Source: Roridomyces roridus (lineage: Eukaryota > Basidiomycota > Agaricomycetes > Agaricales > Mycenaceae). From it: a DNA stretch of 64,000 nucleotides. A program made the position numbers and the translations under genes. The DNA lies in the NCBI GenBank assembly GCA_029378245.1, contig JARKIF010000001.1:1178001-1242000 (forward strand), written 5' to 3'. Positions within the stretch are counted from its first letter, which is position 1. Every line of letters begins with the position of its first letter. A model generated the notes under the pieces. It saw only the letters and a program-made list of their open reading frames with translations, ran no database searches and was not told the DNA's origin. Shown here piece by piece: positions 1-59,339 of this stretch.

Positions 1-984
1 CTGCTAGCACGGGAGGCGCTGGAAACCGAAACCGAGCTGCGAGCACTGCTGGAAGAGTGGGGCACCGAAGTCGACGACGAGGCAGAACTGCTCGAACGCG
101 ATGCCGAGGCAGACGCAGAGCTGCTCGCACGGGAAGCAGATGAAGACGAAGCACGAACACTGCTGGCCGACGCCGAGTGAGAGTTGGAAGCAGAGCTGCT
201 AGCATGGGAGGCGCTAGACGCCGAAACCGAGCTGCGAACACTGCTGGAAGAGTGGGGCAGCCAAGTCGACGACGACGCAGAACTGCTCGAACGCGAAGCG
301 GAGCTGCTCAAATGCGAAGACGAGGACGAGGCACGAACACTACTGGCGGACGACGAACGAGGGACCGATGCAGAGCTGGAGCTTGCATGGGCCGACGCCG
401 AGGACGCGCGTGATGAGGTAGACGATGCAACTGTGGAACACCATGAGCCCCGGGTCGTGGATGAAAAAGGATAGCACTCACTCTGCATGCAGTCTACACC
501 AACCCCAGTACCGGCGGTATTTCCGCAACATTGTGCAAGAGTGCTTCCAGACGAACTAGTAGAGAGAAATCATTAGCGTCGAGAAAAAGGTTGAAAAGAA
601 TGGGACTCGCCATTTTCCATCTGCAGCAGCAACTACACAACCGGTACCGACATACTCGCCACAGGTACTCGAAGGTACACCGAGGCCATTGAGTATATTT
701 TTGCCAGCAGAGCTGCTGGTAGAATCGAAGCCCGAACAGCAGAACGTTTTCTTCGTTCCACAGGTGTAGGGCGTTGAAGAAGGCGTTAAACGCTTGACGG
801 CGCCTAATAAAATTGTCAGTCAACGTCCGAAGATATGAAGAAAGAACTTACCGGGAGTCCGGCGCCGGGGAGGGAGTGGAGGTAGGCCACGAGCCAACCG
901 ACGAGCGTTCGTGTCTTGAGGGAGAGCGTCGACGGCGACGAAGGTTGCGAGAGAGAGTGCAGAGAGTAGGATTGTGGTCTTCAT
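1..984 (-). CDS. Hydrophobin-type multi-module secreted protein, copy A (5' end only)
   Basis: Partial gene read leftwards from an ATG at 984 and running off the window start. Inferred exons are 984-852, 803-611, 555-482 and 430-1; the second intron has a GC donor. Exon 1 encodes a secretion signal (MKTTILLSALSLATFVAVDA) followed by a basic stretch ending in VKR, a possible Kex2 site. Exons 2-3 encode a cysteine module, C-x6-CC ... C ... C ... C-x8-CC-x11-C, which is the class I hydrophobin order plus one extra cysteine. Exon 4 is an open Ser/Ala-rich linker and stays in frame to the window edge. It is closely similar to the complete copy at 24060-30046. Role inferred: secreted, amphipathic surface or wall protein. 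The family assignment rests on cysteine spacing, because hydrophobin sequences are otherwise poorly conserved. Confidence 0.75.
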
Positions 985-5050: not shown

Positions 5051-6001
5051 TTACACGCTCATTTTCATCGGTATACTCGGATGGCATTCATACCCCTCCA
5101 CGACGAAATCAGTATACTCGAACGCCTCGATATCCTCAATGCCCTCGCGAGCCCACCTGAGTGTCGGGAACGGCTTTGGCACACGCGTAAGCTGCACCTC
5201 GAGCGCGTCGACATGGTCGCGATACACATGCGCGTCACCGAGCTGAATAATGAGCTCGTGAGCCTGGGTTCCAGTGACCTGGGCGATCATATGTGTGAGG
5301 AGCGCGTAGGAGGCGATGTTGAATGGAATGCCGAGTCCTAGGTCTGCTGAACGTTGGTACATCAAGCAGGACAGTTTGGGCGCGTCTGTCGGGGAGGAGG
5401 CGGGAGGGAGGTGGACGTAGAATTGGCAGAGCATGTGGCATGGTGGGAGAGCCATTTGGGGGATGTCTGAGAAGGCGATTATTCGTGGAATTCGATAGAG
5501 GCTCATAAACGCACCGGCAGGATTCCACGCGCTCAAGATGATCCGTCTATCCGTGGGGTCCTCCTTAATCTTGCGGATACACTCACGCAGCTGGTCGACG
5601 CCCTGCCCCGTGTAATCTGCGTCACAATCCGTGTACGGGGCGCCAAAATGACGCCACTGAAAGCCATATACAGGGCCCAGATCACCCTCCCTGCGATGCC
5701 CCAGCCCGCGCTTGGTGAGGAACTCCTTTGAGCCGTTGCCGTCCCAGATCTTGACACCCTTGGCTGAGAGGAGTGCCGAGTCTGTCGCGCCGTGCACGAA
5801 CCAGAGCAATTCCTCGATGATGCCGCGTAGAAAAGTGCGTTTTGTCGTGAGGAGGGGGAGGGTATGGTCTGCGAGGGAGAAGCGAAGCGCTGGGGGAGCG
5901 AAAATGGAGAGTGTGCCTGTGCCAGTGCGGTCAGGGCGTGGTGCACCCGTGTCGAGGACGCGTCGGATGAGGTCCAGGTACTGTTGCTCTTCGTGGGCCA
6001 T
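5051..6001 (-). CDS. Thymidylate synthase
   Basis: Methylates dUMP to dTMP using methylene-tetrahydrofolate, the only de novo dTMP route. Exons 6001-5515 and 5466-5051 give 300 residues, the usual size for the family. The intron 5514-5467 is exactly 48 nt and has no stop, so an unspliced reading inserts 16 residues just before the active site. Splicing restores [20 protein letters not shown] with the nucleophilic Cys in PPCH. Other family motifs are [11 protein letters not shown] near the start, [31 protein letters not shown] and the C-terminal [18 protein letters not shown]. The ATG at 6001 ([12 protein letters not shown]) is preferred because the family begins close to that segment; an upstream in-frame ATG at 6055 would add 18 residues. 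It converges on VTC1 with 84 bp between the stops. Confidence 0.95.
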
Positions 6002-6585
6002 GAAAGTAAGACAGACGCGTTGTTGTCGATTGTTTAGTAGCTCATCATCATCCACCTCTCTCCCACTTTGCCATGAAACAGGGGGGGGGGTTCAATGGGT
6101 AGTTCCGTGTCCACTCGAATTGTCGACTGCCTCTCGAAATTTGCGCGCGTCCTTTCTGAAAAGAAACCGTCGCGAGGTGGTGTTCGGTTCTTTGTGGTCG
6201 GAGTCGTATTTTTGACAGTCCTTTCTTCGCCTGTACTCGATATTATTGCTTTACCATCTATTTGGGCAGCCTGGTCCGAACACTCAGTACTCCTCAACCC
6301 ATCCTCAACCCGACCTTTGTCTGGAATTCTTTACTTATCTCATAGCACCCGGCGCCAGGGTCTGGAAATGTGCCGTAAAAACCTTTGTGGGTCTCAGTGG
6401 TAACCCAGTTCAAATGCCGGCAGTTCTCCAATCCGCCGATTCCCTCCAAGAAGTTTCATCTGATGGGTTCATTTTCTAAAATGCTTCTCGACGAATCAGC
6501 AAGCATGGGTCCAAGGGGGTGGGTGTCCTGGGGGTCTCCATTGAAAACCAACCAGTCAACGTGAGAGTGGCCCATTTTTCTCTCC

Positions 6586-17383: not shown

Positions 17384-19393
17384 TCATACAAGCGCGGCCG
17401 ATTGCAGGTACCCGCGGAAGATGGAATCTCGTACTGTGGCGTGATTAGCGTGGCGGAACAATCAACAAGAGACAATTAGTACCATTCCCAATTATGCGCT
17501 GCGTGGCTTTGGTGTCCTTGAATACGAATCAGACACTGCAAGGCCAAAGCAAAGAGAGACGCACCACTACGCTGGTAAAGTGCGTGTACAACACACGGCG
17601 ATTCTCGTTATTCCGGCGATGGACTTGGAGGAAATGGGCTCGGAAGTATTGTACCACCGTTTCGTAATCGTTTGCGCGTTCGCCGAACGACGTGATGCTT
17701 CGTGTCGATGATCAGGATCTTCATCACGGGAAATGGAAGAGCGGAGGCGTACTACTTCTGGACCCTGAGCCCATTGTCAAGCTTGGACTTGAGTAGATCC
17801 GTTTTATCTATCCCAAGTCAGCTGGGAGCGCTGGGCTATAAGCGATGGGAACGCACTGAGGAACAATACGAGATGGACACTCTTCAGCAAGGCATTGGAA
17901 CAGACTTGGGTAAAGAGCTGCAATGAGTCGTCGATCCTGTTCGTTCGGGGGTCTTCTTCGAGATACTGAGAGGAATCATCGACATCAGGGACACTACCAC
18001 CGCGTTATCGGCGCACGACGTACCTGGTCAAAGGCGCTGACAGGAGCAACAAAGATGATGGCGTTCGCTGTGTCAAAGTACGGGATCTGATAGTGACCCG
18101 ATGAGATGCATAGTCGCAGCAAAAAAAGGATAGATACCCAGGAGTGTCTCTGCCCTCGAGCACCGCCCACATCGAACAGATGCCAAGTGACAGACTTGCC
18201 ATGGAGGTCGACATCAAATATATGCTCCGCCACACCCATCGTTTGTATACGAGCGTGGAGGATGTCGTCTGGAAACGAGTGAGTATATGCGCGTTTTTCG
18301 AGAGGAATAGGGCACGCACCGGTCGTGGGCACATACTCGGGTGCAGCGATACGAGAAATATCCTTCAGGAAACTGGGGAACGTGAGACGGGCTCATCGGA
18401 AGTCGTGGAAAAAGACATACAACTCGGACCATTCGTCGAGTTTGAGCTTCCGTTTCATGATCAGGCCCTTGACGGTCGGGTGTGCCCAGAGCTCCCTGAT
18501 GTCGTCCTTGAGGATCGAGAGCATGCGGCCGACTTCGTCGAGCAAAACGTCCTCGGCCGAGGCCATGTAGCCTTCCCGCCCGCGGTGGTAATCGACATCG
18601 CTCTTCTTGTTTTTCCCTAGCTTGTCGACCGTGCGTGCCTGCCAACCGCTGCGCACGAAAACACCGCCTTTGCCAGAGCCGGAAACGGTGATACCTCCGC
18701 TCAGACGGTCTGCGAGAGGTTGGTCCGAGGCGAGCAGGGGGGATAGGCGGTTGCGAAGAGAGACCATGCGATTGGATCGGCCGCTGGCGGGGCTAGACGA
18801 GGCCGAAGCTTTCGACTTTTCGTAGTAGCCGGTCGACTGGGAGTTAGGATCGTCGACGAACGCGTCGTCCCAAGCCTCGAGGGTGGATAGAATGTGCTTT
18901 AAGGAATGGACGACGTTGAAGTAAATGACTGTACGCCAGGAGGAGCGCTCTTGATCGATAGAGTTGGGTTTGTACATGAGCTGGAACTGTTTCTGGAGGG
19001 TGCTCTTCCCGCTCTCGGCTGTAGAGGTGGTGTGAGTAGACTGGAATGCAGAGAGACGCGGTCGTTGACATACCCTGGCCGAGTAGCAATAACTAGAGGC
19101 GGTGAGAAAGGGCGGTAAGGCAGCAAGCCAAGATGAACGGACCTTGACGTCGCCCCGGGAACGTCTCAACCTTTCGCGTTCCTGCCTGAGCTCCTCGTCT
19201 ATCATCTCGGACACTCGTTTGGCCTCTGCCTCTGCCTCGAGACGAGCACGGCGCTCCTCCAGCGTCTCTCCAGCGTGGCCGGCGCGCATGACGGCGGAGA
19301 TGGGGTCTATGAGGGCTGGTTAGGAGCGTCGAGGAGAAGGGAACAGCACTTACCAGCTGCAGAGTCAGTCGAGTAGAGCGAGGGAGTCCTCAT
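17384..19393 (-). CDS. Divergent G-protein alpha subunit
   Basis: Heterotrimeric G-protein alpha subunit for receptor signalling at the plasma membrane. The gene has many short exons from an ATG at 19393 to a stop at 17386-17384. Conserved GTPase motifs appear once introns are removed: P-loop GQAESGKST, switch I HARIQTMGVAEHIF, switch II FDVGGARGQRHSW, NKTDLL, and a TCAT-box equivalent TSVVDTKAT, ending RDSIFRGYLQSAALV. Three features are odd. The catalytic Gln that follows DVGG is Ala. A Ser/Gly-rich insertion of about 85 residues sits in the helical domain. The N-terminus (MRTPSLYSTDSAA) lacks the MGxxxS myristoylation signal and is followed by a charged helix. Such divergent, non-canonical alpha subunits are an Agaricomycete expansion. 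Coupling to GTP hydrolysis and membrane anchoring may both be altered. Confidence 0.9.
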
Positions 19394-20314: not shown

Positions 20315-21397
20315 TTACCGCTTAATGAATCCGACCAGCTCTTTCTGCAGTTCTCTCTGCCGCCGCGCCTTTTCCAAATCATCCACACTGCGCAAATCGT
20401 ACACGATATCCCGCGTCTTTCCAAAGTAGACCTAGGGTTGTCCTTCAGCATTGACCCATGAGACAACGAAAACCGTACCTCCTGCAGCAAATTCCGCATC
20501 TTAATTTCCATTTCCTCAACCATCCGCCCAGTATTGGTAATGTGAGACGATTGGTCAAGGATGGGCCAATCTTGTTCCGTCTGAATTACACAATGAGACT
20601 GGCGGGAAATGCGGGACCAGAAAAATATACCTGGCGCGTCATGCTCCCGCTCAAGCTGACCTCTCCCTCACCCTTCCATCCCTCGTTCTCCCCGTTTGAG
20701 CCTTTATGCGTCACAAGTTGCAGCATCACCGTCGACGTGAGCTTGTAATGCGCTTGGCGCCCACGCTCGGCGGTCTCAAATACATGGATCGAGTCCCATG
20801 AGCCCGAGGGCTCGTGCGGAGCCGTTGGGGTCATGGCTGAGCACATATGAGCATTAGAACTAGATCGAGAATGGACACGTACTTTTCTTGAGCAGCACGA
20901 CACCCGCGAATCCACCATCGTCAAGGTCCCAGAGATATACCGACGAGGCACCACCCTCAAAGTACCTGATAGTTTCCTCTTCAGTCTGGACGCGCTATGC
21001 CAAGGTCGATACGAGACATACATCTCACGATACGTATCGAACGCCTCGTTTGCAGCGATCTCCAATTTGCGTAGTTTCGCAGTCGGAATCGTCCCGTCTT
21101 CTAGCGGAGGATCATACTCGTTCGACCACGGAGATCTGGTCCAGGAATGAGCTCTCATGATCTCCAAGCACGCAGTCCCACCAACCTATGACTCTCGCCA
21201 TCTCGATTATAGTCGCACGCAAGGTAGTCTTTCCCCGTCGTGCGGTCCGTCTTGAGCTTGAGGGGTTGATCGACACTGCCCAGCAGGTCGTCGGCGTAGT
21301 CTGGACATATCCCGATCAACGCTGTAACGTTCTCCTCCGTTCGTGTAGGAGGCAGGCGCCGCATGAGGTCCAGCATCGAGTCTACGAGGTCGGCCAT
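20315..21397 (-). CDS. CAP2: F-actin capping protein subunit beta
   Basis: Forms the alpha/beta heterodimer that caps actin barbed ends. About six exons; the splice sites are canonical and the frame is continuous from [20 protein letters not shown] at 21397 to the stop at 20317-20315. Family hallmarks are [91 protein letters not shown], a WDSIHVFE strand, [12 protein letters not shown] and a SGSMTRQ loop. The C-terminal actin-binding tentacle is [22 protein letters not shown]. Length and motif order match the family closely. Confidence 0.93.
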
Positions 21398-24059: not shown

Positions 24060-27000
24060 TTAGAGAGTGGTCGGGGAGCAGTTGAGACCGGTGCTGCCCT
24101 TCAACTGCGAGCAAGCGCAGGGAGAAAGGCCGGAGCTGCAGCTCTTGGCTCCATAGATCGACGAGACAGCCTGGCAGGCCTGGGCAATCGCAGAGCCGAC
24201 TTCAGAGCTGGCCTTGTTCAATCCAAGCTGCTGCAAGATGTTCTCGGCGGCAGAGGCCTCTGCTTGGATGATTTTGCTGCAGCAGTAAGTGTCCCGGCCG
24301 CCAATCGAGCCCGAAGAGCTCGTGGTCGTGGCCTGCGCCGTGGAGCTGGTGTGGGTAGTGGCGCCTGCCGTGCTGCTGGTACGGACGGTAGACGAGTAAG
24401 CCGGCACCGTAGAGGAGCGTGCAGCGGACGAAGAGGCGGCCGGAGGAGCAGAGGAGCTCGGGCGAGCGGCCGAAGAAGAGGCAGCTGCGCTGCTGTAACG
24501 AGCGGATGAGGACATCACAGAGCTGCTGGGACGAGCAGCCGAGGAAGAGGCTGCGGCAGAGCTGGAGTGGGCCGAGGAAGAGGCTGCTACACTGCTGTAA
24601 CGAGCGGATGAAGACATCGCAGAACTGCTGGGACGGGCAGCCGAGGAAGATGCTGCAGCAGAGCTGGAGTGGGCCGAGGAGGAGGCTGCCGCGCTGCTGT
24701 AACGCGCAGACGAGGACGGCACGGCAGAGCTGGAGCGAGCGGCGGAGGAAGAAACTGCGGCACTGCTGGAGTGGGCAGATGATGAGGGAACAGCAGAGCT
24801 GTAGCGAGCCGAGGAAGAGGCGCTGCTGGAGCGAGGAGCCGAGGAAGAAGCAGCGGCGCTGCTGGAGTGAACTGATGAAGCAGAGCTGCTACGAGCTGCA
24901 GACGAGGAGGCCGCGCTGCTGTAGCGAGCAGAGGAGGAGACCGCCGCAGAAGAACTGGCGCGGATTGATGAAGCAGAGCTGCTACGAGCGGCTGAGGAAG
25001 AAACGGCAGTGCTGTAGCGAGCGGATGAAGCAGAGTTGCTGGAACGAGCGGCCGACGAGGAGGCAACGCTGCTGGAGTGGGCAACGGATGAAGACGGACG
25101 GGCCGAAGAAGACGGGTGAATGCTCGAAGCACCGGCGCTGGACAGCGAGACTGGAGAAAATATGAGTTTTCCGGTTTTTTGTGAATAAAGAAAGGCATTA
25201 CCGCTCGAACAATCAATGCCAATGGCGTTGAAAAGAGTCTTGCAGCATTGCAGAGGACGCTTGGATCCAGAGCTGGAAAAAGAATTAGAATGAACAATTG
25301 AGAAATCGATCAGATACTCACCAAGACTTGGTTCCGTCAGCAGCAGTGGTGGCAGGGACACACGCCACACCGATGTTTTGCCCAACATTCAAAGAGGACG
25401 AGACACCGGCATCGTTCAGGCAACTGCTGCCGTAGTGGCTAGTGGGAAGCTCGATGCTGTCACAGCAGAAAGTGCTCTGTCCGTTGCACGAAACAGATCC
25501 AGAGGCAGATGGCGAGGCACTGGAAGCCGTACGGGAAGCGGAAGCCGAGCTGGAGAGACGAGATGCCGAAGCTGATGCCGACGAGCGGACGGAAGAAGAG
25601 CTGGAGTGGGCGGCAGAAGAGCTGCTGGGACGAAGCGCTGGAAGCCGAACTGCTACGGACGGAGCTGCTAGCCGAGGAGCTGGCACGGGATGAGGATACA
25701 ACAGCGCTGCTGGAGCGAACCGATGATGCCGAGGCAGAGCTGGAGTGGGCCGCAGAAGAGCTGCTGGGACGAGCGCTGGAAGCCGAGCTGCTGCGAACGG
25801 AACTGCTGGCTGAGGAGCTGGGGTGGGCAGAAGATGCAACCACGCTGCTGGAGCGGGCCGATGATGCCGAGGCAGAGCTGGAGTGGGCCGCAGAAGAGCT
25901 GCTGGGACGAGCGCTGGAAGCCGAGCTGCTGCGAACAGAGCTGCTAGGCGAGGAGCTGGCGCGGGATGAGGATGCAACGGCGCTGCTGGAGCGAGCGATA
26001 GAAGCAGAGCTCGAGTGAGCCGTAGACGAGCTGCTGGGACGAGCGCTGGAGGGCAGAGCTGCTATGAACAGAGCTGCTAGCCAAGGAGCTGGGGTGGGTA
26101 GAAGATGCAACCGCGCTGCTGGAGCGAGCTACAGAAGCAGAACTCGAGTGAGCCGTAGACGAGCTGCTGGGACGAGCGCTGGAGGCAGAGCTGCTACGGA
26201 CAGAGCTGCTGGCCGAGGAGCTAGGATGGGCAGAAGATACAACGGTGCTGCTGGAGCGAACCGATGATGCCGAGGCAGAGCTGGAGTGGGTGGCAGAAGA
26301 GCTGCTGGGACGAGCGCTGGAAGCCGAGCTGCTGCGAACAGAGCTGCTAGGCGAGGAGCTGGCGCGGGATGAGGATGCAACGGCGCTGCTGGAGCGAGCG
26401 ATAGAAGCAGAGCTCGAGTGAGCCGTAGATGAGCTGCTGGGACGAGCGCTGGAGGCAGAGCTGCTACGGACAGAGCTGTTGGCCGAGGAGCTGGCACTGC
26501 TGGAGTGAGCCGATGCCGATGATGCCGAGCTGGAACGAATGACAGATGATGACATCACAGCCGAAGAGCGTGCCGAAGCAGAGCTGCTGGCCCGGATGCT
26601 GGCTGAAGAGCTCTGGCGAATGCTGGAAGAGCTGGCAGAGCTAGAGCGAGCCGATGAAGAAGCAGCTGCATTCGCAAGATGAGCCGTAACGAATCGAAGA
26701 CGACGACGGCACGGCGGAAAAGCGGGCCGAAGAGCTGCTGGAGGCGCTCGGACGGGTTCCAGACGATGAAGCAGAGCTGCTGGCTACGACGCTGGAACGG
26801 GCAGAAGAGACAGCAGAGCTACTGGAACGAGCCGCAGACGATGAAGCGCGAGCAGATGACGAGCTCGAGGCAGCGGCAGATGAGGAACTGCTGCGAATGC
26901 TGCTCGATGCCGGGTGTGATTGGGAAGCAGAACTGCTTGCACGGATGGAAGAGGCCGACGAAGAGGCGCTGCTTGCGCGGGAAACGGAGGCAGATGACGG

Positions 27001-30000
27001 AGCCGAGCTGCTAGGACGCGAGGATGAAGTCGCGCTGCTCGAATGAGCAGAGGAAGATGCAGATGAGCGGGGTACCGAAGAGGAAGCGCGGGAGCTGCTT
27101 GCACTCGCGGAAGAGTAACCGGATGAGTGAGGCACCGAGGCAGAGCTGGCACGGGAGGCCGACGAGGATACAACGGCGCTGCTGGAACGAACTGCAGATG
27201 ACGACGCAGAGTTGCTGGCACGCGAAACAGACGCAGTGCTGCTAACACGCGATGCAGAGGCCGATGCAGAACCACTCGAGCGGGCTGAAGAGGAAGCTAG
27301 AAGAAATTTCGTCAGAATTCAAGTACAAATATGATTTGTATAACTTACCTGCACTGCTCGAGTGAGAGGACGACGAAGGCCGAGCGCTGACGCTGGAAGC
27401 AGAAGATGCCACCGAGCTACGAGCACTGCTTGAAGGCGCCGAGGAAGAATGGGACACCGAAGAAGACGAATAGCCGTGAGGCGCAGATGATGAAGCAGAG
27501 CTGCTGGCGCGGGTGGAAGCCGAAGCAGACGAAACACGGGCGCTGCTCGATGCCGAGGCAGAGCTACTGGCACGGGAGATCGAAGCGGAGGCGCTGGCTG
27601 AACGAGATGCCGACGCAACGGAGCTGCTGGCCTTGGAAGCACTGGACGAGGCGCTTGCAGAACGGGACGCAGAAGCAGAGACTGCGGAGCTGCCAACTCG
27701 GGAGGCACTGGAAGCCGAGGCACTGCCAGAACGAGAAGCAGACGAACTGCTGGCCCGGGAGGCAGAGACGCTAGCAGATGAGGAAGCGTGAGCGCCGCTC
27801 GAAGAGTGTGGCGCTGAAGATGAGGCAGAGCTGCTAGCCCGAATAGATGCCGAAACACTGGCAGAATGAGATGCGGAAGAACTGCTGGCCCGCGATGATG
27901 CCGAAGCACTTGCCGAGTGAGATGCCGAAGCGGACACACTGGAAGCCGCAGACGAAGAGGCACGAGCGCTGCTGGAGGAGCGAGGTGCGGAGGATGAAGC
28001 AGATGCCGAAGCGCTTGCCGAGTGAGATGCCGAAGCGGCAGAGCTGCTAGCACGGGACGCGGACACGCTGGAACCCGAAGCAGATGAAGAAGCACGGGCA
28101 CTGCTGGAGGAGCGGGGAACTGAAGACGAGGCAGAACTGCTCACACGGGAGACAGAAGCCGAAGCACTGGCGGAATGCGATGCCGAGGCAACGGAACTGC
28201 TAACTCGGGAGGCGCTGGAAGCCGAGGCGCTCGAGGAACGAGACGCTGAGGCAGAAACCGCGGAACTGTTGGCGCGGGAAGCAGAGATGCTGGCGCTGGC
28301 GGAACGAGATGACGAAGTTGAAGCAGCAGAGCTGCTGATCCCAGAGGCAGAGCTGCTGGCCTTGGAGGCAGAGACGCTGGAAGCGGATGAAGAGGGACGA
28401 GCACTGTTTGAGGAGCGTGCAACTGAGGAAGACCCAGAACTGCTAGCCCGGGAGGCAGAGCTGCTCGATGCGGGAGCCGATGAGCTGCGAACGCTGCTCG
28501 AAGAACGGGCGACGGAAGCGGACAAGGCCGAGCTGCTGGCACGGGAGGCGCTGCTCGAGGAGTGGACCGCAGAAGAAGAGCCACTGGCAGAGGAATGACC
28601 GTACACCGAGCTGCTCGCACGGGAAGCAGAAGCAGACGCTGAACTGCTAGCCCGGGAAGCACTGCTGGAAGAGCAAGGAATCGAAGCCGACGACGCAGAG
28701 GCGCTCGAACGCGATGCAGAAGCGGACGAGGAACCACTGGGCCGCGAAGACGACGACGAGGCCCGGATGCTGCTAGCTGACGACGAGTGAGAGACAGAGG
28801 CAGAGCTTCCAACAGAGCTGGAGCTTGCACGGATCGACGCCGATGACGAGCTGCGAGCGCTGCTCGAAGAGGTGGCGCTGGCGGAGGAATGACCAACGGA
28901 GGAGCTCGAACTTCCGCTGGAGCTGGCCGAAGAGCGAGACGCCGAAACCGACGACGCAGAAGCGCTCGAACGCGATGCCGAGGCAGATGCGGAGCTGCTC
29001 GCACGGAAGGAAGAAGAAGACGAAGCACGAACACTGCTGGCCGACGCCGAGTGAGAGTTGGAAGCAGAGCTGCTAACACGGGAGGCACTAGACGCCGAAA
29101 CCGAGCTGCGAGCACTGCTGGAAGAGTGGGGAACCGAAGTCGACGACGACGCAGAGCTGCTCGAACGCAATCCCGAGGCAGACACAGAGCTGCTCGCACG
29201 CGAAGCAGATGAAGACGAAGCACGAACACTGCTGGCCGACGCCGAGCGAGAGTTGGAAGTAGAGCTGCTAGCACGGGAGGCACTAGACGCCGAAACCGAG
29301 CTGCGAGCACTGCTGGAAGAGTGGGGCACCGAAGTCGACGACGCAGAACTGCTCGAACGCGAAGCGGAGCTGCTCAAATGTGAAGACGAGGACGAAGCAT
29401 GGACACTACTGGCGGACGACGAACGAGGGACCGATGCAGAGCTGGAGCTAGCATGAGCCGACGTCGAAGACGCGCGTGATGAAGAGGCAGACGATGCAAC
29501 TGTGGAACAACATGAGCCCCGGATCTTGAATGGAAAGGATAACACTCACTCTGCGTGCAGTCTATACCAACTCCAGTACCGGCGGTATTTCCGCAACATT
29601 GTGCAAGAGTGCCTCCAGAGGAACTAGAGAGAGATTAGCGTCGAGAAAAAGGTTGAAAAGAATGGGACTCGCCATTTTCCATCTGCAGCAGCAACTACAC
29701 AACCGGTACCGACATACTCGCCACAGGTACTCGAAGGTACACCGAGGCCATTGAGTATATTTTTGCCAGCAGGGCTGCTGGTAGAATCCAAGCCCGAACA
29801 GCAGAACGTTTTCTTCGTTCCACAGGTATAGGGCGTTGAAGAAGGCGTCAAACGCTTGACGGCGCCTAATAATCTTCTCAGCCAACGACCAGGGATAAGA
29901 AGAAGAGACATACCGGGAGTCCGGCGCCGGGGAGGGAGTGGAGGTAAACCACGAGCCAACCGACGAGCGTTGGTGTCTTGAGGGAGAGCGTCGACGGCGA

Positions 30001-30046
30001 CAAAGGTTGCGAGAGAGAGTGCAGAGAGTAGGATTGTGGTCTTCAT
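24060..30046 (-). CDS. Giant triple-module hydrophobin-like secreted protein, copy B
   Basis: Seven inferred exons: 30046-29914, 29865-29673, 29623-29550, 29499-27349, 27296-25322, 25272-25202, 25150-24060; about 1,895 residues. The order is: signal peptide (about 1-20); a basic pro-region ending VKR; cysteine module 1; a Ser/Ala linker of about 1,300 residues across exons 4-5; module 2 (end of exon 5 and exon 6); a second Ser/Ala linker of about 270 residues; and module 3 at the C-terminus. Modules 1 and 2 share C-x6-CC ... C ... C ... C-x8-CC-x10/11-C with a GIDC end. Module 3 lacks the first Cys and has CAC for the second pair. The order is that of class I hydrophobins plus one Cys. Hydrophobins self-assemble at air-water and wall interfaces; three modules on flexible, probably O-glycosylated linkers would make a multivalent surface protein (inference). 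Intron 2 has a GC donor. Exon 5 needs three single-base corrections to stay open. Confidence 0.75.
25621..26560 (-). repeat. Tandem repeat of about 135 bp within the linker
   Basis: The phrase 'gctgctgggacgagcgctgg' recurs at about 25621, 25760, 25901, 26031, 26164, 26301 and 26434, a spacing of 130-141 bp. On the coding strand each unit gives about 45 residues containing SSASSARPSSS, then HSSSAS and RSSSAV. This is a younger repeat layer inside the older Ser/Ala-rich linker and a likely site of length change. Confidence 0.8.
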
Positions 30047-54205: not shown

Positions 54206-56362
54206 ACTATTTGCGAAGAAATGACAAAAGCACCTCACTCGAACTGACTTGTGCTGCTCAAGAGTGTGTGAAGAGGATTCCCGATTAGGCAATCCAATAG
54301 AAACGATCTCGTGCTCCGAGTCGGAAGGAAGTGGTTCAACAGAATGCAGAGGTCACAGCGTTGCATGTCAGCCACCCTCATTCTCTCCTTGCCTCCTGCC
54401 ACGACAATCTCCCCGCTGATAAGAACACGTCAACTACCCTGCTCAATTTCCAAGATATCAATCCTCGCAACCTCTTCACCGAGTCTCGATGGACGTTACT
54501 TATTCGATGCCCGCCATGTACAAAATTGCCGCATATCTCGCCTACGACCACATCGCATGCTCCCGCCCATCCTCTCAGCTCACCCATGGCGAGTTTCCCG
54601 AACGTTCGTGAGCGTCACCCACTAAACTCAAGCCGTCGCTCCGCGTCGCCATTCTTGCAGCAAGAGCTTCAAGGCTTTCCAGGACCTCCGGCGTTGGACC
54701 TGGTGCAATATATTCTCTGTTTTTTTTTTGGCAACGGCGAGTTCTCTAAAAGTCTTCCATCGGTACGCTTCCTGCAAGGCAATGATCGCCATCAATCTCG
54801 CCCGTCAATGTCTCCGCAAGTCTCCGTTGAAAACCGGGCCTCCAAGTCAAGCACGCTCAAGACCACTTTGCCACAAAAGACTCTCCGCTTGATACAACAT
54901 ACGCACCGCCAACACTAGCGAAGACACGACTGCAGACGGCTGAAGACGAACCTGGAAGCGTTCTCCAAGACCTGAACCCTGATCATCCACGCTACCGCGC
55001 AAACTCCGTCAACGTCGGGAGACCAAGACATCGTGCAAGACTCGATGTGACACAATGGCAAGCTCCTGGAAAGATTCCATCGTGTGTTCCTAACTAGTGA
55101 GTCTTCGACGCAAGACCTTCCAGACCTCGAAAGCCGCAAACACTGCCGAAGATCCCACAAAAATGAAGACGAACCTACATATCAAGGGCAAGGCTGGGTT
55201 CGTCGAGATTTATCGAACTGAACTGTGGGATATTGTTGGTTCGCACGGTTTCATTTTTTCTTGGGTACCACTTACAAGCCGCCAGGTTTTTAAACGACCT
55301 CCGGGATGGCTGGCGCCCATCTAGGCGGCCAGCGATTCAGAATAATTCATTACCGACGCGCAAAAGGCTGGGACTCACCGAAGATTCAGAGGACCGAGTC
55401 GTAAGCAGTTGTTGCGCTGCGAGTTGGTCCCGCTCCTGGTGACCGTGTACGAGTCATTGGAGCCAGGTTTTGCTGTCGATCGAGGTCGACACGGCGGTAA
55501 AGAACAAAGGCGGCTTCGATCAATTTCCAGACGTGACCGCGACCATTCAGCCTTGCAGCCGGCCGCGAAAAATGAAGCAGGATCCGACGACATCCGTTTC
55601 TTCCGAGTCCCTGGCCGCCGTCTAATTGAAGGACGCTAATACTCGGACCCACTGCAAAATCTGGTTGATGCATTGGCCCTGATATCTACAGCGAAACCTG
55701 GAATTGTTGTGTCACTCTTGTTCAACCGTGACGAATGCATAACATCAACACGAGCAAGAAAACCGACCACAAGAGCCCTACGTTCGCGGACTACGGCGGC
55801 CTGTACCGCGCGGCTCGCTGACAACGTACGGGGACTGGACGGAGTTTTTCCCAGCCAAAGATTGGCATTTTTTGACATTCAATTAGCTTGCAACAAGTTC
55901 AATGCAACAAGTGCCAAGTAAATTGTCGAAGGGTGATGCGGGTTGGATGCGGGAGATGACATTCAAGACAGGCATTATTGAGCCCCTTGTTTGGTTTGGA
56001 CACTTCTGCTTACGCTCTGCCGCACATCTTCAAGCCACCGACTTGCGTATTTGCCGAGCAACTCCCGATGTCCAAATACTTAGGGCGGCCTCTTAGGCTT
56101 CCCCACGATCCCCCAGGGCTCACTCTCATAGATTGCAACAATTTTGAGCAGCATCGAAGGACGTCGGGCTGAAAAAATTGTAGCGGGTAGCTGTGATGGT
56201 TACCCGTACCCGTACACGCAGGGGTAACTGCCAACCCGCGCGGGTATGTACCGCCCGTGCCATTGCCCCTCTCAATCGGGTTAGACAATCACCGCCCTGG
56301 CGTGCACCTCTTTAAAATGAGAATGCTTCAGCTTTGTTCTCCTGCCTCGTCTTCAAGCTGAA
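54206..56362. other. Gene-poor region with relics
   Basis: No intact gene. It holds a decayed copy of the small Ser/Tyr-rich gene (listed separately) and the 'gaactgtgggatattgttgg' element near 55218, which returns near 57480, 59346 and 59838. An open stretch on the plus strand at 54331-54918 has no recognisable domain. Confidence 0.45.
55376..55640 (-). pseudogene. Relic of the small Ser/Tyr/Gly-rich gene (first)
   Basis: On the minus strand the codons for the segment read GSNDSYTVTRSGTNSQRNN, matching SKDSSYTVTSSGTNSQGNN of the intact gene at 60421-60744. The frame then runs into unrelated sequence, and no start codon or second exon is preserved. Opposite orientation to the intact gene. 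Confidence 0.75.
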
Positions 56363-57266
56363 ATGCCTTTCCCGTGGTCGTTGATTGGTATGCTTTCTTT
56401 GCGACTCGGACGATTCAAACACTTATTGCGGCTCATGTAGTAATGCCTCCCGGCGATTTCGACGAACCGCACGAGCGTCAGGCTATGTAAGTACTGCGCC
56501 CCTTCACGTTGGATGCGCAGTCCTAGTCAACTTTGAACCCCAGCGAAATGGCTGCAGTACATAACATGTTCATCCGCGCCCTGAACGCCATCCACGCTCA
56601 AGCAGACACCATCCGCGATGACCAGGCGAAAGATTTCGCCTTTTTCTGTCTTTCTTTCGTGTGTACTTGACTCCCGTTGGCTGCGCCCTCACTTATTTAT
56701 ACCAGTGTGAAATGCTACACCACCACCATGACATCGAAGAGTCCATGGCATTCCCGTTTTTCGAAACGAAACTGGGCGCTGGGGCAATGTCCGACAACGT
56801 CTCCCAGCACCGCGCGTTTGACGCCAGCTTCTCATCCTTCCAATCTTGGTTCCAAGACGTCTACGATGGCAAAGCAACATACTCGGCCTCGGTCGTGCTA
56901 GAAAAGGTGGATGCGCTAGGCGACATTCTCGTCTTACACCTCACGGATTAAATTCCTACCCTCGACGCCAACAAACTGCGTGCGGCAGGGTTCACGGCGG
57001 AGGATTTCAAAGACTTCGAAAAGCGGTGCTTGTCCGCCATCCTCAAGAACGTATCGTTCTCCATCTCTATGCCGATGACCCTTCTCTGCCACGACAAGGA
57101 GTCGTTACCCGTGTTTCCGCCCTTCCCCAAACCGTTGTTGTGGGCGGTGAGGTATGGGTTTTCATGGAAGTTTAGTAAGAGTTGGGAGTTTGCGCCGTGT
57201 GATTGGGACGGGAAGGTGAAGCCTGGGTTGGGGAATGTGCCATTGGGGTCGAGGGTGGCGGCTTAG
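56363..57266 (+). pseudogene. Hemerythrin-domain gene, broken copy
   Basis: Same exon plan as the intact copy (58275-59175): start MPFPWSLIV..., exon 2 with PPGDFDEPHERQA, exon 3 EMAAVHNMFIRALNAIHAQA, then exon 4 CEMLHHHHDIEESMAFPFFE. A stop (TAA, 56949-56951) replaces the codons that read AAE in the other copy, after DALGDILVLHLTD; the frame then continues with IPTLDANKLRAAGFTAEDFK to the normal C-terminus GNVPLGSRVAA. The upstream 300 bp also resemble those of the intact copy. A truncated product lacking the C-terminal helices would be made if expressed. One nonsense change only, so loss is recent. Confidence 0.85.
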
Positions 57267-57529
57267 AAGGTGCTCCATTCTACATCTTGTTCCACGAAAT
57301 TCTATTGCTTCCAACTTAACTTCGCTCCATCCACCCCAAATCAATCTTGATGCAGTGCCAGCGCCCCAGTGTCAATCAAGCCAGCGCCGATGACATTATT
57401 TTCCTTGATTCGGGCACGTCGCGTGAAGAGGAGGCCTCAAACTTGTCTACAGGTCGTTGAGATTTCATGGTACCTTTGATGAACCGTGGGATATTGATGA
57501 TTCGCACGGTTTCATTTTTCTTGAGTAAG

Positions 57530-57700: not shown

Positions 57701-58274
57701 TCAGCCTGCCGCGAAGAATCAGGCAGGATCCGAGGCAATCCGTCTCTTTCGAGTCCCTGACCGCCGTCTACTTGTAGGACATTCATACTCGAGCCCATTC
57801 CTATGAATCTCGTCGCTTACTACAGCTCATTCTCGCTGGAAGAAAGCCTGGACGCTGGTATTCATGGCTTTGGACGGTGCTTCCTTGAGCGCTGTAAAAA
57901 GTGCCAAGTTTAAATTGTCGAAGGCCAGACTTGGGTCAGACAGAGATGAAGGGTAAAGACAAGCACTTAGCACTGTTGAGCACTGTTGTTGAAGCCTTTG
58001 TTTGGACAGTCCGACACGAATCTGCTTGCGCTCTGCCACACACATCTTCAAGCCACCGACTTGCGTATTCGACGAGAAGCTTCCATGTATACCCAACTCT
58101 TAGGCCACGCACGGGTGCCACGGCTACATGGTCATTAAGCGCGGGCGGTGATGGGTAATCGGTTTCGAAAATCACAGCCACACCGCCCTAGCGCGCGCCT
58201 CTTTAAATTTGCAATGAGGATGCCTCACCTTTGTTCTCCTCCCCCGTCCACCTCCCCTTCCACTGCCAGCTGAA

Positions 58275-59175
58275 ATGCCGTTCCCATGGCCGTTGATTGG
58301 TGCGCCCTTTGCGCCGTTGACTCGGACGATTCAAACGCTTATCGCGACTCGTAGCAATCCCTGCCGGCGATTGGGACGACTCGCTTGAACGTCAGGCCAT
58401 GTAAGCGCTGCGCTCCCGCCCTCTGGATGCGTAGCCAACCTTCAACCCATAGAGAAATGGCTGCAGCGCATAATGCGTTCATTCGCTCTCTGAACGCCAT
58501 CCATGCTCAGGCAGACACCATCCGCGATGACCAGGCGAAAGATTTCGCCTTTTTCTGTGTTTCCTTCGTGTGTGCTCCGCTCCCTCAGCTGCGCGTTTGC
58601 TTATTTCATACCAGTGTGAAATGCTGCACCACCACCACGACATCGAAGAGTCTATGGTATTCCCGTTTTTCGAAACAAAACTGGGCGCAGGGGCAATGTC
58701 GGACAACGTCTCCCAGCACCGCGCGTTTGACGCCAGCTTCTCGTCCTTCCAGTCCTGGTTCCAAGAGGTCTACGATGGCAAAGCAACATACTCGGCCCCC
58801 GTCGCGCTAGAAAAGGTCGATGCATTGGGCGACGTCCTCGTCTCGCACCTCGCGGCCGAAATCCCCACTATCCACGCCGACAAACTGCGTGCGGCAGGGT
58901 TCAAGGCGCAGGATTTCAAAGACCTGGAAAAGCGGATGATGTCCGTCATCCTCAAGGACATATCGTTCTTCACCTCTATGCCGATGGGCATCCTCTCTCA
59001 CGACAGGGAGTCGTTACCCGAGTTTCCGCCCTTGCCGAAACCGTTGCTGTGGGCGGTTAGGTATGGGTTTTCGTGGAAGTTTGCTAAGAGTTGGGAGTTT
59101 GCGCCGTGTGATTGGGAGGGGAAGGTTAAGGCTGGGTTGGGGAATGTGCCATTGGGGTCGAGGGTGGCGGCTTAG
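58275..59175 (+). CDS. Hemerythrin HHE-domain protein
   Basis: Four or five exons with canonical introns give about 235 residues: MPFPWPLIAIPAGDWDDSLE, RQAIEMAAAHNAFIRSLNAI, HAQADTIRDDQAKDFAFFC, then CEMLHHHHDIEESMVFPFFE, and the rest of the four-helix bundle (QHRAFDASFSSFQSWFQEVY; LGDVLVSHLAAEIPTIHADK). Metal ligands are seen in HNAF, HHHHDIEE, QHRAF and SHLAAE, the H-HxxxE-H-HxxxD/E pattern of HHE proteins, which bind a di-iron centre and oxygen. Fungal members are small, cytosolic and probably iron or oxygen responsive. Close to the broken copy at 56363-57266, with changes scattered along the length. Confidence 0.88.
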
Positions 59176-59339
59176 AGGGTGTCTTCAAGTTCTACATTTA
59201 TTCCACGAAACTATCTTGACAATCAATTATTTCTTAATCTTTCCGCAAGAGTAGCGCCCTAATGATGCTTTTCTCTGGCACGCCGCGTGAAGGATGAGGA
59301 CTTCTCTACGCATGTCCCGCCCTTACCAGCCTATTCATC

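Follow-up and report, generated by a model that had tools for sequence, protein, structure and literature searches.

The stretch of DNA analysed here, referred to below as the window, is 64,000 nucleotides of the genome of Roridomyces roridus (positions 1,178,001 to 1,242,000 of contig JARKIF010000001.1, assembly GCA_029378245.1), and on its minus strand, at 24060..30046, lies a gene for a giant hydrophobin-like protein in which three cysteine modules are joined by long linkers rich in serine and alanine. Contigs of this genome are given C-numbers, contig C1 being the one that carries the window, and A, B, C and C312 are copies of the gene, of which the one at 24060..30046 is copy B.

The three-module gene and its copies

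The start codon of copy B is the ATG at 30046 and its stop codon is at 24062-24060, and the gene is divided into seven exons by introns of 48-52 bases. From N- to C-terminus the layout is a signal-like N-terminus, a dibasic stretch, module 1, a linker, module 2, a linker and module 3. The features, with cysteines numbered within a module, are:

1..984, minus strand: 5' part of the intact tandem paralogue, copy A (exons 1-3 and the start of exon 4), with module 1 at ~774-489
24060..30046, minus strand: copy B, giant three-module hydrophobin-like gene; the same exon layout is open in A, C and C312
30046-29914, 29865-29673, 29623-29550, 29499-27349, 27296-25322, 25272-25202 and 25150-24060, minus strand: the seven exons of copy B
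29984..30046, minus strand: likely signal peptide, MKTTILLSALSLATFVAVDAL, a hydrophobic N-terminus judged by eye
29837..29983, minus strand: short N-terminal stretch with dibasic RR, RRR and KR, holding intron 29913-29866
29557..29836, minus strand: module 1, N-terminal type; intron 29672-29624 interrupts the codon of cysteine C5
25489..29556, minus strand: linker 1, Ser/Ala-rich, with introns 29549-29500 and 27348-27297
25592..26495, minus strand: tandem repeat array in exon 5, 6.7 copies of a 138-base unit
25209..25488, minus strand: module 2, C-terminal type, intact in copy B; intron 25321-25273 interrupts the codon of cysteine C5
24294..25208, minus strand: linker 2, Ser/Ala-rich, ~288 codons in copy B, with intron 25201-25151
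24063..24293, minus strand: module 3; cysteine C1 absent, CAC in place of CC, no intron

The KR of the N-terminal stretch stands five residues upstream of module 1. Modules 1 and 2 have the pattern C-x6-CC...C...C...C-x8-CC-x10/11-C and end in G[IV]DC, and the cysteine before x8 is formed only by splicing, its codon (TG|T or TG|C) being split by a 49-base intron. The module 1 intron has the usual GT donor (GT-AG) in C312, as against GC-AG in A, B and C, and the splice call is therefore supported. An earlier reading of this DNA, made from its letters only and called here the sequence-only reading, had proposed a signal peptide, two modules of one cysteine order, a third, altered module and Ser/Ala linkers of about 1,300 and 270 residues, and all of these were recovered: the first as a hydrophobic N-terminus following the ATG, the linkers as roughly 1,300 and ~290 codons in copy B. 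What it had missed is that copy B as assembled is not one open frame. The frame of exon 5 shifts at about 26690, 26050 and 25620; stops interrupt the frame in which it begins, and the Ser/Ala-rich reading is kept only by way of frame shifts. An automatic gene model of copy B that closed the frame by means of extra introns was ruled out, since these introns cut into module 2.

Copy A (C1:1178984-1173206) starts at window position 984, ends outside the window and encodes 1,823 residues over seven open exons. As direct duplicates, A and B match over the gene with ~0.6 kb upstream and 0.1 kb downstream; the exon 5 part of module 2 is identical in the two and module 3 differs in one residue of 84 (99%). 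Copy C (C1:1124901-1131400, on the strand opposite to B) and copy C312 have the same seven exons, also open, and encode 1,926 and 1,903 residues, respectively. In the final models of A, C and C312 the splice sites were set by hand, the automatic gene finder having misplaced exon ends. In A, C and C312 a single open frame contains all modules, preceded by one signal peptide as judged by eye; this does not hold for B as assembled. The proposal that the locus encodes one giant protein thus holds for the layout in three intact copies and fails for the window copy, whose broken exon 5 was overlooked, and in those three copies the modules appear to be read through in frame and not to belong to separate genes.

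Matches to modules 1, 2 and 3 were also found on contigs C246, C248 and C458. In the stretches compared, identity was 98.7-100% within C246/C248 and within C312/C458, and because of this the two pairs look like duplicate or allelic contigs. C325 holds the end of one copy only, 99.1% identical to B. After collapsing the near-identical pairs there are five three-module loci, namely A, B, C, C246 (parts read) and C312. The copies on C246 and C248 (L015/L016) have one mismatch in 3,252 bases, and the frame around module 3, counted from stop to stop, has 432 codons in C246 and 552 in C248, a single substitution ending the C246 frame early.

In A, C and C312 the modules, bounded by the motif, are 77 residues each, linker 1 is 1,183-1,386 residues and linker 2 is 255-435 residues. 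The linkers overall are 45-55% Ser and 21-26% Ala; linker 1 is 55% Ser and 21% Ala with 90-105 Lys or Arg and 0-1 Asp or Glu. Every one of the 90 indels in the linker exons among these copies (20, 33 and 37 per pair) is a multiple of three, the count coming from nine exon comparisons, of three linker exons in three copies, that are not independent of one another. The ratio of nonsynonymous to synonymous substitution rates (dN/dS) was 0.19-0.30 for the linkers and 0.10-0.15 for the three modules combined. Comparison of the copies shows modules and linkers to be under purifying selection.

Related genes in the same genome

The family is not confined to three-module genes. At C168:381001-395500 a related N-terminus, which shares DTNARRLARGLPPLPP, is followed by six modules and by a seventh that is degenerate; the automatic model has 30 exons and 3,610 residues and is tentative, with some doubtful stretches. 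C346 carries the same six-module series as C168. On C79 there are two genes, each with a signal-like N-terminus, a module, a linker and a second module, as read by eye and not fully spliced. Their linkers consist of different repeats and are again Ser-rich and basic, one built of repeats of SAPVSSIRPSS (432 residues, none of them acidic) and the other of SSAKPASSVAASAPVSSVVA (a stretch of 1,211 residues, 2 of them acidic). C68/C449 have two module pieces ~3 kb apart. The segment ARRLARGLPPLPP near the N-terminus is common to the three-module genes and C168; neither of the C79 genes, with their two modules, showed it.

A tree of 14 modules places module 2 together with module 4 of C168 and with the second module of each C79 gene at a support of 91/100, a value to be read with the C79 modules included only up to cysteine C5, the fork drawn open and unstarred, the bootstrap unsettled and module 3 on a very long branch. 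The first modules and modules 1, 2, 3, 5 and 6 of C168 fall apart from this group. Pairwise scores were 100.7 bits for module 2 with module 4 of C168 and 57.8 bits for the second modules of the two C79 genes with each other; the second module of C79a is less clear, with ~30 bits to both module types. Because of this grouping and these scores, the two module types, N-terminal and C-terminal, may predate the divergence of these genes, with the linkers replaced since.

Relation of the modules to hydrophobins

Nine spliced modules were aligned: modules 1 and 2 of copy A, module 1 of C312 and six of C168. The order C-x6-CC...C...C...CC...C is invariant in all nine, and module 3 departs from it in the manner listed above. 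All nine matched PF01185 at E<=1, and two further families each matched one member, more weakly. The Pfam cut-off for PF01185 is 23 bits, and scores above it were obtained for modules 1, 5 and 6 of C168 (30.1, 24.8 and 27.5 bits) and for module 3 of copy A (24.0 bits). When the profile of the nine modules was searched against the PDB, all matches at E<1 were four distinct hydrophobin sequences (5w0y, 6e98, 7s7s/7s86 and 2nbh), with E-values of 6.4e-5 to 5e-4 and over nearly the whole profile; the remaining two rows had E above 1 and one of them was a hydrophobin. Alignment of the modules with six ordinary hydrophobins of the same genome by hhalign gave a probability of 89.8 and an E-value of 1.8e-6.

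The position of an intron adds to this. In 7/8 ordinary hydrophobin loci of the genome an intron follows the TG of the C5 codon, which stands 44 residues from the beginning of CC; the remaining locus (L003) was unparsed, two (L007 and L008) are the same protein, and the script demanded a donor after TG so that the phase was built in, though the frame nonetheless had to run on correctly into the C-terminal cysteines. In modules 1 and 2 the intron falls in this same codon. Module 3 has none, and aligns at 6/6 cysteines of the single-module hydrophobin type of Mycenaceae. That single-module type has six and not eight cysteines from CC onward (6/6 in this genome and 36/37 aligned Mycenaceae proteins); it lacks cysteine C1 and one cysteine of the C6-C7 pair, which would fit a joint loss of the C1-C6 disulfide. 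A dense PF01185 cluster was seen on C279, a contig of 562 kb that holds 14 of the 21 genome matches listed. Of 642 protein matches in the database 120 were listed, six of them from R. roridus; five of these six agree exactly with six of the eight hydrophobin loci of this genome on both exon pieces tested, and none of the other 114 listed proteins agrees in this way.

The profile searches, the cysteine order and the shared intron position together support the view that the modules are hydrophobin-related and class I-like, as judged from their sequences. Several observations weigh against it. The search of each module against PF01185, which the sequence-only reading had recommended, gave a score above the cut-off for module 3 and scores below it for modules 1 and 2 of copy A (13.9 and 16.2 bits, the latter a full-length match), and module 1 of copy B, also matched at full length, scored 13.7 bits; modules 2, 3 and 4 of C168 were below the cut-off too. 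Basidiomycete class I hydrophobins have cysteine spacings of 6 / 26-33 / 12-13 / 6 / 13 according to Table 1 of PMC3879219, and the spacings here are 6/32/8/8/11 in module 1, 6/33/12/8/10 in module 2 and -/34/11/6/10 in module 3. The first two intervals are within that range in modules 1 and 2, C4-C5 fits only in module 2 and C5-C6 only in module 3, and C7-C8 is outside it in all three; the modules are therefore called class I-like and not class I. Modules 1 and 2 have a ninth cysteine, which varies in position and is absent from module 1 of C312. Module 2 alone found no match in the PDB, and in a protein database search with it no candidate had three words in common. AlphaFold, run on module 3 only, drew mostly helix with a mean predicted local distance difference test score (pLDDT) of 59.7 alone and 45.0 with 37 relatives, these being Mycenaceae hydrophobins picked for spread from 120 listed of 642 matches. 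The low scores of modules 1 and 2, the missing PDB match of module 2, the variable ninth cysteine and the poor AlphaFold confidence could be taken to mean that the modules belong to some other cysteine-rich secreted fold, unrelated to hydrophobins and resembling them in cysteine order. We regard this as very improbable, for the module profile matches solved hydrophobins at full length, sister modules score above the PF01185 cut-off and the intron is placed in the codon of cysteine C5. The proposal of a class I-like protein with several hydrophobin modules is supported by profiles, cysteine order and intron, with the reservation that modules 1 and 2 fall short of the Pfam cut-off and that the spacing is partly off class I.

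Elsewhere in the window are genes or gene pieces for thymidylate synthase (5057-6091), a G-alpha protein (18399-19319, a piece) and the beta subunit of F-actin capping protein (20592-21185). The segments 56356-57299 and 58268-59210 are direct duplicates with 85% identity, and an open reading frame with a hemerythrin domain overlaps the second.

Interpretation and comparison with known systems

We think it rather probable that R. roridus has a family of giant, probably secreted polyhydrophobins that act as multivalent surface coat proteins, and this coat is the most likely reading, the slime gel discussed below being a bold alternative. In this family the chain opens with a module of the N-terminal type, a second type stands at or close to the end, and a divergent third module comes last of all. 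The protein would be secreted, a pro-piece would be removed at the KR ahead of module 1, and the linkers would be O-glycosylated, extended and hydrated. The modules would insert into hydrophobic-hydrophilic interfaces, or associate with one another and with ordinary hydrophobin films, so that two or three interface anchors would be tied in one chain by a long cationic spacer. The outcome would be a coat that is thick and held together covalently, and that might bind anionic polymers of the wall as well. Secretion, KR trimming, O-glycosylation, interface anchoring and tethering are steps that we infer.

Some points tell against this reading. It is drawn from sequence comparison in one genome, that of R. 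roridus. No giant relative was found at E<=0.01 when residues 1-133 of copy A were searched against 2,695 proteins of 1,003-3,190 residues. R. roridus proteins stand in the searched database, and because of this the deposited annotation is probably without the gene at 1,003-3,190 residues with this start; shorter, longer or split entries are possible. Indels in multiples of three can also come from slippage in codon-periodic repeats, and dN/dS for single modules is uneven, from 0 to 0.43 (the latter for module 1 of A and C). As for the window gene itself, it may be non-functional. When exon 5 of B was compared with intact A or C there were three indels that are not multiples of three, and these frame changes with their stops would fit a decaying pseudogene of the family, its layout inherited and not in use. 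On the other side, the remaining six exons have no such indel relative to A and C and are intact, and two of the three frame changes fall inside the array of 138-base units, where assemblies may err, the third being near 26690; assembly error and real decay are therefore both possible for copy B. Decay is a real prospect here, if short of an even one.

Two other functions have been considered for the family. The chain could be a polyprotein precursor that is cut after secretion to release single hydrophobins at Kex2 sites of the Rep1/Hum3 kind. Secreted, repeat-rich fungal proteins with Kex2 sites are known, Rep1 of Ustilago maydis being cut at such sites and Hum3 being thought to be cut likewise (PMC4617103), there is a KR ahead of module 1, and cleavage of polyhydrophobins is raised as an open question in PMC12375992. 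However, the linkers of A, C and C312 are without KR, RR, KK or RK, and hence without dibasic sites between units; beyond the N-terminal stretch such sites were found inside modules 1 and 2 only. The tentative C168 model, in which the RR and KR of the N-terminal stretch are also present, has only one further dibasic site beyond its N-terminus and module 1, and this lies close to the degenerate module that comes last. Because the linkers of the three intact copies lack dibasic sites we hold a Kex2 precursor to be unlikely, other proteases being possible. The second function is a telechelic slime protein, in which the modules would be hydrophobic stickers and the cationic, glycosylated linkers a hydrated mesh, the family building the slime sheath of the stipe. 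The stipe of R. roridus is sheathed in slime. Mushroom slime is usually regarded as polysaccharide, which speaks against a protein gel, as does a literature search on slime in Roridomyces that gave nothing beyond the stipe of R. pruinosoviscidus. In favour of a gel are the species itself, the type of the genus Roridomyces in the family Mycenaceae, with a viscid to glutinous stipe described in its congener R. pruinosoviscidus (PMC12780892), the layout of sticker, long hydrophilic chain and sticker with three unlike linkers, and the tendency of the modules to sort by position. We take this reading to be doubtful, though better placed than the precursor. In its full form, which we offer as a speculation of similarly low probability, the cationic, O-glycosylated chains, of up to ~half a micrometre contour length (1,386 residues at 0.36 nm), would have surface-active modules at either end and through these become cross-linked to form the slime sheath. 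Gene duplication and slippage of repeats would have tuned the length of the chains and their valence (two, three and six to seven modules), with the older pair of N- and C-terminal module types kept.

Hydrophobins are regarded as small coat proteins. Giant members with several anchors, found in a basidiomycete, would extend the surface proteins by a class resembling polymers and would offer a natural template for films or gels held by tethers. Should they be linked to the slime sheath, it would become possible to test whether mushroom slime has a basis in protein. Module types also seem to be conserved by position in this family as unlike repeats of the same chemistry replace the linkers, and such linker replacement would be a good case for the study of selection on disordered linkers.

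The multi-hydrophobins described in the papers covered here are mainly from ascomycetes and are of up to 1,187 residues in the one survey that gives sizes. That survey reports class II multi-domain proteins of 2-7 domains and 264-1,187 residues only in Cordycipitaceae and Clavicipitaceae (PMC7827705). Another counts 12 class I multidomain hydrophobins (11 tri- and 1 penta-), biased to Fusarium, and 126 of class II (PMC12375992). Polyhydrophobins can exceed 400 residues (PMC10820438), and a hydrophobin with a collagen-type repeat occurs in a basidiomycete (PMC11446221). In the open literature searched, subscription papers and supplements being outside the search, there was no giant multi-module hydrophobin and no basidiomycete one, which fits the statement of the sequence-only reading that it knew of no class I-like protein of such size; the section of PMC12375992 on class I multi-domain proteins gives no sizes.

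The trihydrophobin CFTH1 of Claviceps fusiformis and the pentahydrophobin CPPH1 of C. purpurea are similar to the R. roridus proteins in having several modules per chain and low-complexity hydrophilic linkers. They are, however, class II proteins of ascomycetes with linkers described as Gly/Asn-rich (PMC7827705) or Gly/Asp-rich (PMC12375992), a composition not found in A, C and C312, whereas the R. roridus family is class I-like, from a basidiomycete, and has unlike module types and Ser/Ala/Arg linkers of up to 1,386 residues. The class II proteins of Cordycipitaceae and Clavicipitaceae, such as CmQHYD (PMC7827705), likewise have 2-7 modules and hydrophilic spacers, but they belong to PF06766 and stay within the sizes given above, while the R. 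roridus proteins belong with PF01185 and have 1,823-1,926 residues with three modules and, tentatively, ~3,600 with six to seven. The class I tri- and pentahydrophobins of PMC12375992 (n=12) share class I modules in multiples and differ in their Fusarium bias, a comparison made by counts alone. Hum3 of U. maydis (828 residues) is, like the probably secreted R. roridus proteins, a basidiomycete secreted protein with a hydrophobin domain and a long repeat region; it has one such domain and amphipathic repeats with putative Kex2 sites between 14/17 of them, in contrast to the several domains and the linkers free of dibasic sites in R. roridus. Protein 884303 of Rigidoporus microporus is also a basidiomycete PF01185 protein with a repeat region, and the part of PMC11446221 that deals with it reports one hydrophobin domain with a PF01391 collagen triple-helix repeat and does not report multiple modules. 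The solved hydrophobins 2nbh, 5w0y, 6e98 and 7s7s, presumably basidiomycete class I proteins, are relatives at the level of the module with the same cysteine order, but each has one module and no giant linker, and the layout in R. roridus is clearly different from that of the small hydrophobins that coat fungal surfaces.

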